The translations under genes were made by a program, and so were the position numbers. The notes under the pieces were generated by a model. It was not told where the DNA came from. It searched no databases and worked only from the letters and a program-made list of their open reading frames with translations. A DNA stretch of 64,000 nucleotides from the NCBI GenBank assembly GCA_036273715.1, contig DASUHB010000073.1, positions 1-64,000 on the forward strand, written 5' to 3'. Source of the DNA: Gemmatimonadaceae bacterium. Lineage in GTDB: Bacteria; Gemmatimonadota; Gemmatimonadetes; Gemmatimonadales; Gemmatimonadaceae. Shown here piece after piece: positions 18,516 through 61,815 of the stretch; the first letter of the stretch is position 1, and every line of letters starts with the position of its first letter.

Positions 18516-20235
18516 AGCGCCGCTCGAGCTCGTCCCAGGACAGCTGCACGATGGTCGATCGGCCGTGCACGTCGTGCGCCGGGAGTGTCGTGCGGGCGAG
18601 CGCCGTGTAGAGCGCGCGCATTTCGTCGGGCGAGAGCGGGTCCCCGGCCTTGATCGCCGCCTTGCACGCGAGCGTCGCGGCGAGATGATCGTGGCGCGAT
18701 GCGGCCGAGGGCGAGCGGTCGCCGGTGAGCGCGGCGAGCGTATCACGCAAGCAGCGCGGCGCATCGAAGCGCGGGTGCGGCATCGGGACGGCGCTCACGA
18801 TGAGCGTGTGTCCGCCGAAGCCCTCGATCTCGAATCCGAGGCGCTCGAACAGGGCGCGATGCTCATCGAACGCGTCGCCCTCGGCAGGGCCGAGGTGCAG
18901 CGTGATCGGGAAGAGCAAGCGCTGCGACGGCGCTTCGCCTCGCTCCAGCGTCCGCACGAAGCGCTCGTACAGCACGCGCTCGTGCGCCGAATGCTGATCG
19001 ATGAACACGATGCCGTCGTCGTGCTCGAAGGTGATGTACGTGCGGCGCACCTGCAGGAGCGGCGGCACGGGCACCGGGTCGGCGCGCGGCTCGGCCGGCG
19101 CGTCGGCCGTCGGCATGGCTCCGTTAGGCATGGGCGGCTCGGCGGCCGGCGCGAAGGCCGGCGCCCGCAGCACGTCCCGATCGACCGGCACGCCCGGCGC
19201 GAAGGCCGGCGGCCAGGCGCCGCCCCGGCCGCCGAACGTCGCCGCGCTCGATCCGGTGCCGAGCGCGCGCCGAACGGCGTGCTCCACGACGCGTTCGGTG
19301 GGCCAGCGGTCCCGAAACCGCACTTCCGCCTTGGCCGGGTGCACGTTGACGTCGAGGCCGTCGTTAGGCACCGTGAGCTCGAGCAGCAGCGTCGGCCGCA
19401 ACCCCGCGGGAATGGTGGAGCGGTAGGCGGCCTCCGCGGCGCGCACCAGGCCCGCATCGCGGATCGCGCGGCCGTTCACCGAGACGAAGAGCCGGCGGCT
19501 CGCCGTGCCGACATCGGCCGGACGCTCGACCAGTCCGGCGACGCGCACCTCGCCGCTCACGTCGTCCACATCCACCAGACGCTCGGCGAACGATGCGCCC
19601 CACAGCGCGCCGACGCGCGCGCGCAGCGTCGGCGCCGGCGGCAAGCCTAACACATTGCGGCCATCGTGGATCACGGTGACGCGCACGTCGCGACGCGTCA
19701 GCGCCAGCATCGTGAGCACGTCCACGATGCCCCGCCACTCCGAGCGCGCCGAACGCAAAAAACGTTGGCGCGCCGGGGCGTTGTAGAAAAGCCGCTCGAC
19801 CGTGACCGACGTCCCGCGGCGGCGCGCCGCGTCGCTCACATCCGGCAACGACCCGCCCGACATCGTGATGCGCGTCCCCGCACCGTCGACGGCAGCCGTG
19901 TCGATCTCGAGCTGCGATACCGACGCGATGGCCGGCAACGCCTCACCGCGAAAGCCGAAGCTCGCGACGCCCACCAGGTCCTCCGACTGGCGGATCTTCG
20001 ACGTCGCGTGACGCGCCAGCGCGAGCAACGCATCGTCGCGCTCCATCCCGCAGCCGTCATCGGCCACGCGGATTTTCACGCGGCCGCCGTCTTCGCACGT
20101 GACGTCGATGGAATGCGCGCCGGCATCGAGCGCGTTCTCGACCAGCTCCTTCACCACCGATGCCGGCCGCTCCACCACCTCGCCGGCAGCGATCTGATCG
20201 ACCACCGTGTTGTCGAGGATGGTGATGCGCGGCAT
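18502..20235 (-). CDS. mutL: DNA mismatch repair protein MutL
   Basis: 577 residues. GHKL ATPase of mismatch repair. N-terminal motifs ELVENALDAG, ADDGCGM and GFRGEALPAIASVS. The C-terminal domain has DQHSAHERVLYE, matching the endonuclease metal motif DQHA-x2-E-x4-E with Ser for Ala, and a late VHGRST segment, so latent nickase activity is plausible. A Pro/Ala-rich linker lies about 330-390. ATG at 20235 begins MPRITILDNTVVDQIAAGEVVERP; the frame upstream is in the gap. batD ends 31 nt before. Confidence 0.97.
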   Translation of the reverse strand: MPRITILDNTVVDQIAAGEVVERPASVVKELVENALDAGAHSIDVTCEDGGRVKIRVADDGCGMERDDALLALARHATSKIRQSEDLVGVASFGFRGEALPAIASVSQLEIDTAAVDGAGTRITMSGGSLPDVSDAARRRGTSVTVERLFYNAPARQRFLRSARSEWRGIVDVLTMLALTRRDVRVTVIHDGRNVLGLPPAPTLRARVGALWGASFAERLVDVDDVSGEVRVAGLVERPADVGTASRRLFVSVNGRAIRDAGLVRAAEAAYRSTIPAGLRPTLLLELTVPNDGLDVNVHPAKAEVRFRDRWPTERVVEHAVRRALGTGSSAATFGGRGGAWPPAFAPGVPVDRDVLRAPAFAPAAEPPMPNGAMPTADAPAEPRADPVPVPPLLQVRRTYITFEHDDGIVFIDQHSAHERVLYERFVRTLERGEAPSQRLLFPITLHLGPAEGDAFDEHRALFERLGFEIEGFGGHTLIVSAVPMPHPRFDAPRCLRDTLAALTGDRSPSAASRHDHLAATLACKAAIKAGDPLSPDEMRALYTALARTTLPAHDVHGRSTIVQLSWDELERRFGRR

Positions 20236-20266
20236 GCAGAAAGCTATGAGTGCCGCGGGAACAGCG

Positions 20267-22387
20267 TCAATTGCGCGCGAGCGAGGTGAGGTCGTCCGAC
20301 TCGGCCCAACCGTGGCGTCCACCATCGGTGGTGACGCGCGCCCAGGGGCCTTCGCGTTCGACGACGCGCGCGATTTCACCGGGACGCAGCGTTGTCGAGC
20401 GATCGGAGGCGAGGGCCGGCAGGTCGTGCAGCGGCGCGTCCTCCGTCACGACAACGAGGTCGCGGCCGGCGAGTCGCGCATCGACAGCCGCGGCGAGCGC
20501 ACCGAGCACAATGGCGACCGTCAGCGCGCCGACGATGAGCGGACGCGCGCCCGCCAATTTTCGGCGACGAGCGAGATACCAGCCCATGGCGACCCAGGCC
20601 GCGATCCAGAGCGCCGCGGCGACGAGCGCGATCGGTGCCGGCGGGACCGCCGGCACCGCGCCGAGTCCGCTCGCCGCTCCCAGGATTTCGAGACGATCCC
20701 GCACGTCGGAGGCAAGCGGTTCGATGCGCAGCGCGCGCTGCCAGCCAAGCGCCGCTCCGGCCGTATCACCAGCGCTGAATGCGGCGGTGCCGAAATTGGC
20801 CCACGCGTCCGCGGCGCGCGGGACGCGCGCCGTGATGTCGCCGAACACGCGCTCCGCCGCGGCGAAATGATGCGACTGATAGGCGACGACGCCGCGCTCG
20901 AAGAGCGCGGTGTCGGCATCGGGCGTCGCGGCGTGCACTCCGGCGGCGAACACGAGCAGGGCGAGGACCGCGGCAGTGACGGGCACGGTGCGCGGGCGGC
21001 ATGCTTCGCGATCGATTGCGCGATACGTGCGCTCGACGCGCTTGGCGAGCTCCGGCGTCGCGCGCGCGGCGTCGGAGCCGTCGTTGGAGAACGCGGCGGT
21101 ATCGAGCTCGTCGACTAACGCAGCGGCCGCGGCGGCGGTGCCGATCGAGACACCGGCGCGGCGCGCAGCGCGAGCAAGGACGCTCGGCTCGGCGAGCGTC
21201 GCGGGCACGGGGCCGGTGCCGAAGGCGCGGGCGCGGACGCGCGAGGCGACGGCGCGCAGAAATGCGCGCCGGAGCTCGCGCGTCGAGGGTGGGTCGGCGG
21301 CGCGCGTGAGCGCGAGGAGCGCGCGAGCCGGCGTCGCCGGCTTGCGCGCGCGTCGCGGCCGGCGCGCGGCGGCGAGGGCGAATGCCGGGAGCGGCGCGAG
21401 ACCCACCAGCCACCAGAACGGCACCTGCGTGTATGGCTCGGGCGCGATCGGTCCGCGATACGTCGAGCGCAGCGTGTAGCGTGGCGGCGCGACGCCGGTG
21501 TCGCTGCTCGCGAGCGTCCCCGACGCGATCGTCATGGGGACAGCCGGTGCGACCGCCGTCTCGTAGCGGCGCGCATCCGGATCGAAGTACGAGTAATGGA
21601 TCTCGGGTATCGTGAGGCGCCCGTCGTGCTGCGGCGTCACCACCCAATCGAATTCCTTGACGCCGCGGATGTCCAACGAATCGGGCGCCAGGTTGACGCG
21701 CTCCACCGTCGGCACCGCCGACGCCCATGGAATGGCGATCTGCGGTCGCGGAAACAGATTCACGTTGCCGCGGCCGGCGACGCTGACGGTGAGCAGAATC
21801 GGATCGCCGACGCGGCCACCTGTGCTGTCGACGTGCGACGCGATGTGCAGCGTGCCCACGGCGCCGTTCCAATCCGCCGGGCGGCCAGCTTCGGGCGGTT
21901 CGATCGCGATGACGACGGCGCTGTCGCTGCGCAGCTCGTAGGTCTCTTCGTGGCTGAAGAAGCTATACGTCAGCGGCATCGCGTACACGAGTCGCGCCGG
22001 CGGAATGGCGATGCGTCCTGGTGTGAGGGGGAACACGGCCCGCTCGTAGACGCGCGCTTCGTAGCGGTGCTGCCCAACGGTGCGCGTCGGAAAGCCGGAC
22101 GCGGTGGCGGGCGGTTCATAGGCCATGAGGCCGCGCATCTCGGGGGCGATCGCCTCGAGCCGCCGCATGCGGTCGCGCACGTTGGTGTCGAGGAAGACGC
22201 CCAGCTCGTAGGTCGACTGCTGTCCCACGTAGACGGTTTCCGGCGCGGCGAGCACGCGCACGTTGACGGCGGCGCTGGTGTCGAGCGGCGCGCGCGTGAC
22301 GATAGCCGGCGGCCGGCCCGAGCTGTCGATGCGCGACGCGCCGGGCGTCTGCACGCCTAACGCAAGGATCGCCAGGAGCGCGAGCAT
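20267..22387 (-). CDS. BatD-like protein with TPR and C-terminal SH3-like domain
   Basis: 706 residues. N-terminal signal-like helix, then a long extracytoplasmic beta-rich part (about 25-340, AAPETVYVGQQSTYELGVFLD and repeated Ig-like strands) typical of BatD (oxygen-tolerance) proteins. A helix about 360-380 anchors it. A second helix and a TPR-like stretch (TALFERGVVAYQSHHFAAAERVFGDI, WANFGTAAFSAGDTAGAALGWQRAL) follow, then two more helices, and a bacterial SH3-like end (LHDLPALASDRSTTLRPGEIARVVEREGPWARVTT). ATG at 22387 overlaps the batBC stop. Role: assembly or stress function with the MoxR ATPase. Confidence 0.8.
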   Translation of the reverse strand: MLALLAILALGVQTPGASRIDSSGRPPAIVTRAPLDTSAAVNVRVLAAPETVYVGQQSTYELGVFLDTNVRDRMRRLEAIAPEMRGLMAYEPPATASGFPTRTVGQHRYEARVYERAVFPLTPGRIAIPPARLVYAMPLTYSFFSHEETYELRSDSAVVIAIEPPEAGRPADWNGAVGTLHIASHVDSTGGRVGDPILLTVSVAGRGNVNLFPRPQIAIPWASAVPTVERVNLAPDSLDIRGVKEFDWVVTPQHDGRLTIPEIHYSYFDPDARRYETAVAPAVPMTIASGTLASSDTGVAPPRYTLRSTYRGPIAPEPYTQVPFWWLVGLAPLPAFALAAARRPRRARKPATPARALLALTRAADPPSTRELRRAFLRAVASRVRARAFGTGPVPATLAEPSVLARAARRAGVSIGTAAAAAALVDELDTAAFSNDGSDAARATPELAKRVERTYRAIDREACRPRTVPVTAAVLALLVFAAGVHAATPDADTALFERGVVAYQSHHFAAAERVFGDITARVPRAADAWANFGTAAFSAGDTAGAALGWQRALRIEPLASDVRDRLEILGAASGLGAVPAVPPAPIALVAAALWIAAWVAMGWYLARRRKLAGARPLIVGALTVAIVLGALAAAVDARLAGRDLVVVTEDAPLHDLPALASDRSTTLRPGEIARVVEREGPWARVTTDGGRHGWAESDDLTSLARN

Positions 22388-53872: not shown

Positions 53873-54322
53873 ATGACCCGCCGCCCCGAGCGCTACCGAA
53901 ACGCGATCGTCCCGCACATCTACATCGATGGCGCCGACCGGGCCATCGCCTTCTACGTGCGCGCGTTCGGCGCCGTCGAGCTCTTCCGCATCGCCGCGCC
54001 TAACGGCAAGATCGTTCACGCCGAGCTCGACATCGCGGGATCGGTGATCATGCTCGGCGATCCGGATCATCGGCTGTACGAGGAACCTCGGACGCTTGGC
54101 GCATGTACCGCGGGCCTGCACATCATGACTGATGACGACGCCGCGCTGATCGAGCGCGCGGTGCGCGCCGGCTGCGAGCTGATTCAGCCGCCGACGCCCA
54201 TGTTCTACGGCGCGCGCTCGGCGAGTGTGCGCGATCCGTTCGGGCACGTGTGGGTGGTGCTCGCCTGGATCGAGGATCTCTCGCCGCAAGAGGTGCAGGC
54301 AAGGGCCGCGAGAACGGATTGA
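53873..54322 (+). CDS. VOC-family (glyoxalase/bleomycin-resistance fold) protein
   Basis: 149 residues. PHIYIDGADRAIAFYVRAFGAVELFRI, HAELDIAGSVIMLGDPDH and ASVRDPFGHVWVVLAWIEDL are typical of PhnB-like VOC proteins, with His and Glu as possible metal ligands. May bind a small molecule or metal; function not inferable. It ends about 78 bases before the his leader peptide. Confidence 0.82.
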   Translation: MTRRPERYRNAIVPHIYIDGADRAIAFYVRAFGAVELFRIAAPNGKIVHAELDIAGSVIMLGDPDHRLYEEPRTLGACTAGLHIMTDDDAALIERAVRAGCELIQPPTPMFYGARSASVRDPFGHVWVVLAWIEDLSPQEVQARAARTD

Positions 54323-54364
54323 ATGGATTACGGCCAACGAGTCTTTGTTCTTTGTCTCCGCACT

Positions 54365-54393
54365 TTGACACCCGCACGTCCATCGCATATGTT
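54365..54393 (+). promoter_or_regulatory. Sigma70-type promoter of the his operon
   Basis: TTGACA, 17-nt spacer, TATGTT. The -10 box ends at 54393 and the leader peptide ATG starts at 54400, so transcription would start at or within one base of the A of the ATG, i.e. the leader peptide would be translated from a leaderless mRNA. Confidence 0.7.
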
Positions 54394-54399
54394 GTTGCC

Positions 54400-54489
54400 A
54401 TGCACGCTCACCGCGTCACCCACCATCACGCGCTTCACCACCACGGCCCGACGGGTCGCGGCGGAGCGCGCATGCGGATGACTCGGTAA
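54400..54489 (+). CDS. Histidine operon leader peptide
   Basis: 29 residues, eight of them His: positions 2, 4, 8, 9, 10, 13, 14 and 15 (ATG CAC GCT CAC ... CAC CAT CAC GCG CTT CAC CAC CAC). The last part is Arg/Gly-rich. Too short to have another role and placed right before hisG and a terminator: ribosome stalling at His codons when His-tRNA is scarce would prevent the terminator, as in the enterobacterial his leader. Confidence 0.88.
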   Translation: MHAHRVTHHHALHHHGPTGRGGARMRMTR

Positions 54490-54511
54490 GCATCCACCAT
54501 TCACGCTCCGC
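54450..54511 (+). promoter_or_regulatory. Alternative pairing segments of the his attenuator
   Basis: GCGGAGCG (54461-54468) can pair with CGCTCCGC (54504-54511). GACGGG (54450-54455) can pair with CCCGTC (54518-54523), the left arm of the terminator. Segment 54450-54468 would be covered or freed by the ribosome, so these pairings can switch the terminator on or off. Confidence 0.5.
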
Positions 54512-54514
54512 TCG

Positions 54515-54548
54515 AGGCCCGTCCACTTCTGGACGGGCCTTTTCTGTT
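54515..54548 (+). terminator. Rho-independent attenuator terminator before hisG
   Basis: Perfect 10-bp stem AGGCCCGTCC (54515-54524) / GGACGGGCCT (54531-54540), loop ACTTCT, then TTTCTGTTT. Placed 26 bases after the leader stop and 20 bases before the hisG GTG, it is the his attenuator. Confidence 0.87.
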
Positions 54549-54560
54549 TGCCCAACGACC

Positions 54561-55421
54561 GTGCTACGAATCGCCCTGCCCAACAAAGGCCGACTGGCCG
54601 ACGACGCCCGCGAGCTGTTCCGCGACGCCGGCGTCGACGTGCGCGCGCGCGATGAACGCGCACTCACCTCCACCCTCGGCGACCTGTTCGAGGCCATCTT
54701 CGTCCGCGCCCAGGACATTCCCGAGTTCGTCGCCGATGGCGCCGCGGATGCCGGCGTCACCGGAGCCGACCTCATCGCCGAGTCCGATCGCGCTCTGAAC
54801 ACGCTCGCCGATCTCGAGTTCGGTCGCTGCCGCCTCGTCGTGGCGGCCACCGACGCCAGCGACATTCGCGCGGTCGAAGCGATTCCGCACGGAGCGCGTG
54901 TCGCGACCAGCTTCCCGCGTGTCGCCGCGCGCTTCTTCGCGGCCGCGCGCCGCACGGTGGAAATCGTACCGGTGTCCGGCGCATCCGAGATCGCGCCCCA
55001 CATTGGCATCGCGGACGTGATCGTCGATCTCGTTGCCACCGGCTCCACGCTGCGCGTGAACGGACTGCACGAAGTCGCCACGATTCTCGAATCGTCGGCG
55101 CGCATGGTGACGGCGAGCGCCCCGCGACGCCCGGACTGCGGGCGCGTGCTCGACGACCTCGTCGGCGCCCTCGAGTCCGTGCTGCGGGCGCGCGGCCAGC
55201 GCTACCTCATGGCCAACGTGCCGCGCGCCCGCCTAACGCAAGTCAAGCGCGTGCTCCCGGGGCTCAACGGCCCAACGGTGGTCGACATCATGAACAGCGG
55301 CGAACACGTCGCGGTGCACGCCGTTGTGCCGGCGTCGGGCGTCTACCGCATCGTCGCCGAGCTCAAGGCCCTGGACGCCGAGGGCATTCTCGTCACGCGC
55401 ATCGAGAGGCTCATGCCATGA
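54561..55421 (+). CDS. hisG: ATP phosphoribosyltransferase, long form
   Basis: 286 residues, the long homohexameric HisG with a C-terminal ACT-like regulatory domain (the short form needs HisZ, not present here). First committed step: PRPP plus ATP to phosphoribosyl-ATP. LRIALPNKGRLADDARELF start, GADLIAESD and IADVIVDLVATGSTLRVNGL (PRPP site). GTG start; no strong ribosome site, as it lies directly behind the attenuator. Stop overlaps hisD. Confidence 0.97.
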   Translation: MLRIALPNKGRLADDARELFRDAGVDVRARDERALTSTLGDLFEAIFVRAQDIPEFVADGAADAGVTGADLIAESDRALNTLADLEFGRCRLVVAATDASDIRAVEAIPHGARVATSFPRVAARFFAAARRTVEIVPVSGASEIAPHIGIADVIVDLVATGSTLRVNGLHEVATILESSARMVTASAPRRPDCGRVLDDLVGALESVLRARGQRYLMANVPRARLTQVKRVLPGLNGPTVVDIMNSGEHVAVHAVVPASGVYRIVAELKALDAEGILVTRIERLMP

Positions 55422-61192: not shown

Positions 61193-61815
61193 CGCGTCCA
61201 CTCGATCTCGATGCGCTCGATTTCGAGAAGGGCGGCGGACTGGTGACGGTCGTCGCGCAGGACGCATCGACCGGCGCCGTTTTGATGGTCGCGTTCGCCG
61301 ATCGTGTCGCGCTCGAGCGCACGCTGGAGACGGGGGAGATGCACTATCACTCGCGGCGACGCGGGCTGTGGCACAAGGGGTTGGCGAGCGGCAGCGTGCA
61401 GCGCGTGGTGTCGCTGTCGGCCGATTGCGATGGCGATGCGGTGCTCGCGCGCGTGCATTCGACGGGGGCTGCGTGCCACACCGGTGACGCATCCTGTTTC
61501 GGCGGCGCGGCGGTCGATGCGGACGCGCTCGCTTCGCTGGATGCCGTGATTGCGTCACGCGCCGCGGACCGTTCGGGCCCGTCGCCAAGCTACACGCGCC
61601 GCCTTCTCACCGACCGCAACCTGCGCCTCAAGAAACTCGGCGAAGAGTGCGCCGAGCTGGTGGTTGCGTTAGGCGACGGCGACGCGGAGCGCGCGACGGC
61701 CGAGGCCGCCGACCTTGTGTATCACGCGCTCGTCGCATTGCGGGCGCTGGGCGTGGGCCTCGATGAGGTGCGTACGGTCCTGTCACGTCGCGAGCGTGAA
61801 GGCCGTGCGCCGTGA
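61189..61815 (+). CDS. hisI: Bifunctional phosphoribosyl-AMP cyclohydrolase / phosphoribosyl-ATP pyrophosphatase
   Basis: 208 residues (HisIE). HisI half: GEMHYHSRRRGLWHKGLASG, SADCDGDAVLARVH, CHTGDASCF (zinc Cys). HisE half: RNLRLKKLGEECAELVVALGDGDAERATAEAADLVYHALVALRALG. The two carry out steps 3 and 2 of the pathway. Last gene of the operon, ATG overlaps hisN stop. Confidence 0.97.
   Translation: MTRPLDLDALDFEKGGGLVTVVAQDASTGAVLMVAFADRVALERTLETGEMHYHSRRRGLWHKGLASGSVQRVVSLSADCDGDAVLARVHSTGAACHTGDASCFGGAAVDADALASLDAVIASRAADRSGPSPSYTRRLLTDRNLRLKKLGEECAELVVALGDGDAERATAEAADLVYHALVALRALGVGLDEVRTVLSRREREGRAP

Follow-up and report, generated by a model that had tools for sequence, protein, structure and literature searches.

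Background

His attenuators are described from Proteobacteria and from some Firmicutes (PMC9413887). The initial annotation of the DNA studied here had regarded such attenuators as known mainly from Proteobacteria, a statement which has to be widened to include these Firmicutes. Leaderless leader peptides have been mapped in Streptomyces lividans (leuL, trpL, ilvL and others, PMC8079986), and the trpL transcript of Sinorhizobium meliloti has the leader-peptide ATG at its very 5' end (PMC7298713). In mycobacteria, leaderless polycysteine short ORFs control a downstream operon (Canestrari 2020, cited in PMC13236596). Leaderless leader peptides are already known elsewhere (Streptomyces, mycobacteria, Sinorhizobium), while the His version and its presence in the phyla considered below appear to be undescribed. 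Literature searches combining Gemmatimonadetes or Gemmatimonas with these topics returned nothing, and a search on myxobacterial His attenuation returned only an unrelated paper, within the library that was searched. At the gathering score no Rfam family matched, nor did his_leader turn up among the weaker matches up to E = 5.

We analyzed the region upstream of hisG in a stretch of 64,000 nucleotides of DNA of a soil bacterium of the Gemmatimonadaceae, referred to as the window. Our main reading, to which we give a probability of about 0.9 from sequence and comparison, is that this region constitutes the ribosome-mediated transcription attenuator of the his operon, with a sensor peptide translated from a leaderless mRNA.

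Organization of the locus

The his operon is complete and consists of hisG, hisD, an aminotransferase gene (hisC), hisH, hisA, hisB, hisF, an inositol-phosphatase-type gene, which is probably hisN, and hisIE, and ends at 61815. The initial annotation had pointed to eight His in 29 residues, a -10 box ending six bases before the leader ATG, alternative pairings and a strong terminator just before hisG. All four were recovered, the antiterminator competing with the terminator (Table 1).

Table 1. Coordinates of the promoter, leader and hisG features in the window
Feature	Position	Strand	Remarks
-35 hexamer TTGACA	54365..54370	+	TTGAC kept 34-40 nt before the start codon in 94/103 related leaders
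-10 hexamer TATGTT	54388..54393	+	17-nt spacer after the -35 box; T, A and T columns of 1.4-1.5 bits in relatives
Six bases GTTGCC	between the -10 end (54393) and the ATG at 54400	+	
Leader peptide ORF MHAHRVTHHHALHHHGPTGRGGARMRMTR, then stop	54400..54489	+	29 aa, 8 His
Sensing codons: three consecutive His at codons 8-10 and again at 13-15	54421..54444	+	clustered His codons in relatives
Possible protector: small hairpin GGCCC-GAC-GGGTC within the codons for Gly-Pro-Thr-Gly-Arg	54445..54457	+	predicted fold
Segment 2 (5' strand of the antiterminator); its ACGGG copies the 3' arm of the terminator	54450..54468	+	
Segment 3 (3' strand of the antiterminator), which overlaps the 5' arm of the terminator	54504..54523	+	
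Intrinsic terminator hairpin GAGGCCCGTCCA-CTTC-TGGACGGGCCTT, then T-rich tail TTCTGTTT	54514..54541	+	12-bp stem
hisG (long form, C-terminal domain present), opening the his operon	54561..55421	+	PF01634, PF08029

The chance expectation of these elements was evaluated in the window. The TTGACA/TATGTT pair is the sole promoter-like site in the 800 bp from 54000 to 54800, where 0.2 are expected, and a promoter followed by an ATG at such spacing was found twice in the 64 kb, against 0.03 expected from shuffled sequence. The window holds a single short ORF with at least six His and at least 25% His; 30 block shuffles gave none. The second promoter-ATG match (20233-20270, minus strand) precedes a mutL-like ORF (20235), for which a leaderless mRNA is likewise predicted.

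Conservation of the leader among relatives

Relatives were picked by similarity to the query hisG; after removal of duplicates, 82 long-form loci with upstream DNA were retained, from Gemmatimonadota, Myxococcota and Eisenbacteria. The nearest hisG genes are those of Gemmatimonadota, followed by those of myxobacteria and Eisenbacteria. Every one of the 82 distinct loci has a His-rich leader before hisG, and every one has a terminator there. Among 40 further loci of the phylum, a His-rich leader is present in 21 (families f1, f2, f4, f5, f7 and f8), and 20 of these 21 also carry the terminator; counting these further loci, the leader occurs in six Gemmatimonadota families. No His leader was found directly upstream of the short-form hisG genes (f2, f6 and f11; L136-L145 and L131-L135), and it is absent at the f5 loci L119, L124 and L125 and at the f9 locus L130. 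The leader seems to accompany the long form of hisG. A search for plasmid matches to the leader gave none.

In the HisG tree the 20 myxobacterial sequences form one clade (support 1.0) amid Gemmatimonadota and Eisenbacteria, with weak deeper nodes. In a sample chosen by similarity to the query and with deeper nodes of this kind, transfer of the his operon together with its leader is only a suggestion. Two his leaders of myxobacterial and Gemmatimonadota type lie on contigs titled Comamonas sp. (L069) and Candidatus Kuenenia (L098), which may be mislabelled or misbinned.

Predicted start of the sensor mRNA

The distance between promoter and start codon is nearly constant: in 94 of the 103 leaders it amounts to 34-40 nt, counted from the first base of TTGAC. 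When the leaders are aligned on TTGAC, the 30 upstream columns contain about 0 bits, and only the -35 box, the -10 box and then the start stand out. From the end of the -10 box to the start, 5-11 nt are counted in nearly all leaders matching the hexamer rule, the commonest value being 6. Transcription from sigma-70 promoters usually starts 6-8 nt after the -10 box, and a 5' UTR of 0 to about 4 nt is therefore predicted. A gap of 9-10 nt between the -10 box and the start, as seen in about a third of the relatives, would correspond to a 5' UTR of 2-4 nt, not exactly zero. Myxobacterial -10 boxes often fall outside the strict hexamer rule; their TTGAC-to-start distance lies in the same range. The starts first assigned in L009 and L039 are too late; in L039 the promoter rule is satisfied by an in-frame ATG further upstream.

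No Shine-Dalgarno (SD) site is seen near the leader ATG of the window, where only the six bases GTTGCC separate it from the -10 box. An SD-like tetramer occurs in only 7 of 94 leaders, nearly always inside promoter sequence, which would be untranscribed. Since the hisG starts of these genomes also seldom show an SD tetramer (10/82), the promoter spacing, and not the missing SD, is the main argument for a leaderless mRNA. With TTGAC at so constant a distance from the start, and with no other conserved element upstream, the predicted 5' UTR of the sensor mRNA is very probably absent or at most about 5 nt long.

Terminator and antiterminator

The full leader is predicted to fold with -68.5 kcal/mol (z -5.0), leaving its first six bases, including the AUG, unpaired. 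The terminator alone reaches -23.2 kcal/mol (z -6.3). When the upstream strand is removed, 54446-54525 folds as a single long hairpin of -45.3 kcal/mol (z -5.3), in which GACGGGTC (54450-54457) pairs with GGCCCGTC (54516-54523), that is, with the 5' half of the terminator stem. Across the leaders the 5' arm of the terminator is nearly always GGCCCGTC, and its complement ACGGGYCG, in the Thr-Gly-Arg codons of the peptide, copies the terminator 3' arm.

The native leaders were compared with 200 synonymous recodings each. The duplex of segment 2 with the terminator arm is stronger than the mean of the recodings in 93% of 102 leaders, with mean values of -24.6 kcal/mol for native and -21.2 kcal/mol for recoded sequences; no p-value is attached to these figures, the related sequences being non-independent. 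Native segment 2 also pairs fairly well with the arms of other species, because the stem sequence is highly conserved. Coordinated changes are present: in one leader (L117) all three strands are changed, the terminator arms reading CCTGTC / GACAGG and the peptide codons ACAGG, and another (L030) has the GCGGG version in all three places. Fold, recoding and three-way changes agree in describing an antiterminator which includes the terminator 5' arm and is mutually exclusive with the terminator, as in ribosome-mediated attenuators.

The ACGGG element is kept in shifted reading frames, GPTGRG in one frame corresponding to GSRAG or LRVG peptides in several leaders. As the element outlasts these shifts, the comparison points to selection on the RNA rather than on the peptide. 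The same test by synonymous recoding, applied to the protector hairpin, placed 67% of leaders below the mean, a weak support for this structure.

Conservation of Gly-Pro-Thr-Gly-Arg as a peptide was also considered and was rejected, the RNA element persisting despite the frame shift. CGGGYCG is found in another reading frame in L009, L015, L033, L044, L055 and L106, with GSRAG, RVG and PRAA peptides.

The stop codon is about 36 nt past the core of segment 2 in the window, and 16-47 nt past it across leaders. At the distance seen here, a ribosome at the stop codon would not itself cover segment 2.

Proposed mechanism and alternatives

The spacing of the promoter, the peptide, the terminator and the antiterminator are seen directly in the sequence and in the comparison, as is the fact that they are conserved together; from them we infer the start site, the translation of the peptide and the response to histidine. 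RNA polymerase would start at the ATG at 54400, or within a base or so of it, and a ribosome would bind the 5'-terminal AUG without an SD site. When charged His-tRNA is scarce, the ribosome would stall in the His codons (54421-54444) and cover the upstream partner strand, leaving segment 2 free. Free segment 2 would then pair with segment 3, the terminator would not form, and hisG to hisIE would be transcribed. With plentiful histidine the ribosome would proceed to 54487 and the terminator would end transcription; in this state the ribosome may lie between segments 2 and 3 and separate them, or it may have been released or have moved on, so that the upstream hairpin re-forms. This stall-antiterminator scheme is modelled, by analogy, on established leader-peptide attenuation. 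The initial annotation had proposed a classical his attenuator whose mRNA starts at the leader ATG and is translated without a ribosome site. The first proposal is supported by the peptide, terminator and antiterminator kept in about 100 relatives with compensatory changes. The start at the ATG gains from the conserved TTGAC spacing and the unconserved upstream sequence, as a prediction, and the lack of a ribosome site agrees with the sequence upstream of the ATG.

The attenuator might be real and yet belong to an ordinary 5' UTR transcribed from another upstream promoter, the TTGACA/TATGTT match being incidental. Promoter matches by themselves are not proof, the start site is only predicted, and an in-frame ORF with a GTG start opens at 54250. 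Such a 5' UTR would nevertheless have to coexist with a promoter distance that is near-fixed across phyla, an unconserved sequence further upstream, an ATG lacking an SD and a region from 54000 to 54800 with no other promoter-like site; we consider it unlikely. A quite different alternative is that the hairpin is a mere terminator of the upstream gene and the His-rich ORF is incidental. A Pfam Glyoxalase gene on the same strand does end at 54322; however, a promoter and the His-rich ORF intervene between this gene and the hairpin, and in about 100 genomes peptide, terminator and antiterminator are kept as a set ahead of hisG and change in a coordinated way. This alternative is largely refuted, and we leave it a negligible share.

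Control could also be exerted by a trans-acting protein, or on the translation of hisG, instead of by ribosome-coupled termination. Sequestering of the hisG start is conceivable for a gene without an evident SD, but a full intrinsic terminator with its T-tract stands before this start, and the matching antiterminator depends on codons of the peptide, which makes control of this kind very improbable. We retain ribosome-mediated attenuation with a leaderless sensor mRNA as the reading of the locus.

The same design before other genes

In the same genome, a promoter of the same spacing is followed by a Tyr-rich leader, MNRAPRSYSYRYYYVPRATGRERRRVRD, a terminator and a Biopterin_H gene (L226:353-560, G000:C29). 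The Biopterin_H gene is probably that of phenylalanine 4-hydroxylase, an enzyme whose product is tyrosine. Within the leader ORF, CCACGGGACGC is a near-copy of CCACGGGCCGC, the 3' arm of the terminator; an antiterminator of -40.9 kcal/mol is also predicted. We regard this leader as a candidate Tyr-sensing attenuator. L238 and L258 have related Tyr-rich leaders before the homologue, whereas most other homologues lack them.

Three relatives have Leu-rich leaders (e.g. MHRANLLLLSSALGLLGRGLLCMGGKERTE) in which the promoter spacing is the same and a terminator follows: G025 and G241 (L185 and L186), where the search near leuA found them before that gene, and G228 (L180), where a third one lies on the other strand. 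Under the same promoter rule, 25 Gemmatimonadaceae genomes gave no Trp leaders before trpE and no Ile/Val/Leu leaders before ilvB.

On balance it seems probable, with appreciable room for doubt, that Gemmatimonadota and myxobacteria share a class of leaderless leader-peptide attenuators (His in both; also Leu and Tyr in Gemmatimonadota) in which a part of the ORF that copies the terminator 3' arm serves as the switch RNA, that the His version spread between phyla with its operon, and that an attenuator of phenylalanine hydroxylase, sensing Tyr and so far undescribed, belongs to this class.

Significance and comparison with known systems

The classical his attenuator is now placed in phyla for which we found no report of it, and the comparison suggests that a transcript starting at the sensor's own AUG is a conserved design there. 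Leaderless initiation needs no SD site and can use whole 70S ribosomes. Whether it suits an attenuator which needs a ribosome loaded before the polymerase passes the terminator is a testable question. The signature of promoter plus peptide offers a means to find amino-acid sensors in little-studied phyla; it has already led to the Tyr leader of phenylalanine hydroxylase, and the Leu leaders of relatives share the promoter spacing.

With the enterobacterial his leader (hisL; Rfam his_leader) the locus shares a His-rich peptide before the his operon, a terminator and an antiterminator; it differs from hisL in its predicted leaderless sensor mRNA and in having segment 2 inside the ORF. The position of segment 2 also separates it from the textbook trp attenuator, since here a ribosome at the stop codon leaves segment 2 uncovered. 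The Firmicutes His attenuators (PMC9413887) also combine a His-rich peptide, a terminator and an antiterminator before the his operon, in unrelated lineages. The mycobacterial polycysteine ORFs resemble the present leader as leaderless short ORFs rich in the sensed amino acid; they sense cysteine and, according to PMC13236596, act by translation attenuation and not by an intrinsic terminator switch. The trpL / peTrpL system of Sinorhizobium meliloti likewise has a transcript start at the leader ATG, predicted in our case, and transcription attenuation, whereas its peptide concerns Trp, is 14 aa long, belongs to Alphaproteobacteria and, like the RNA, also acts in trans (PMC7298713). The leaders of Streptomyces lividans are from Actinobacteria, the eight listed include none for His, and their start sites were mapped whereas ours are predicted; they are like the present leader in having no 5' UTR (predicted here), a promoter of the form nTGACn + TAnnnT and an attenuator before amino-acid genes (PMC8079986).
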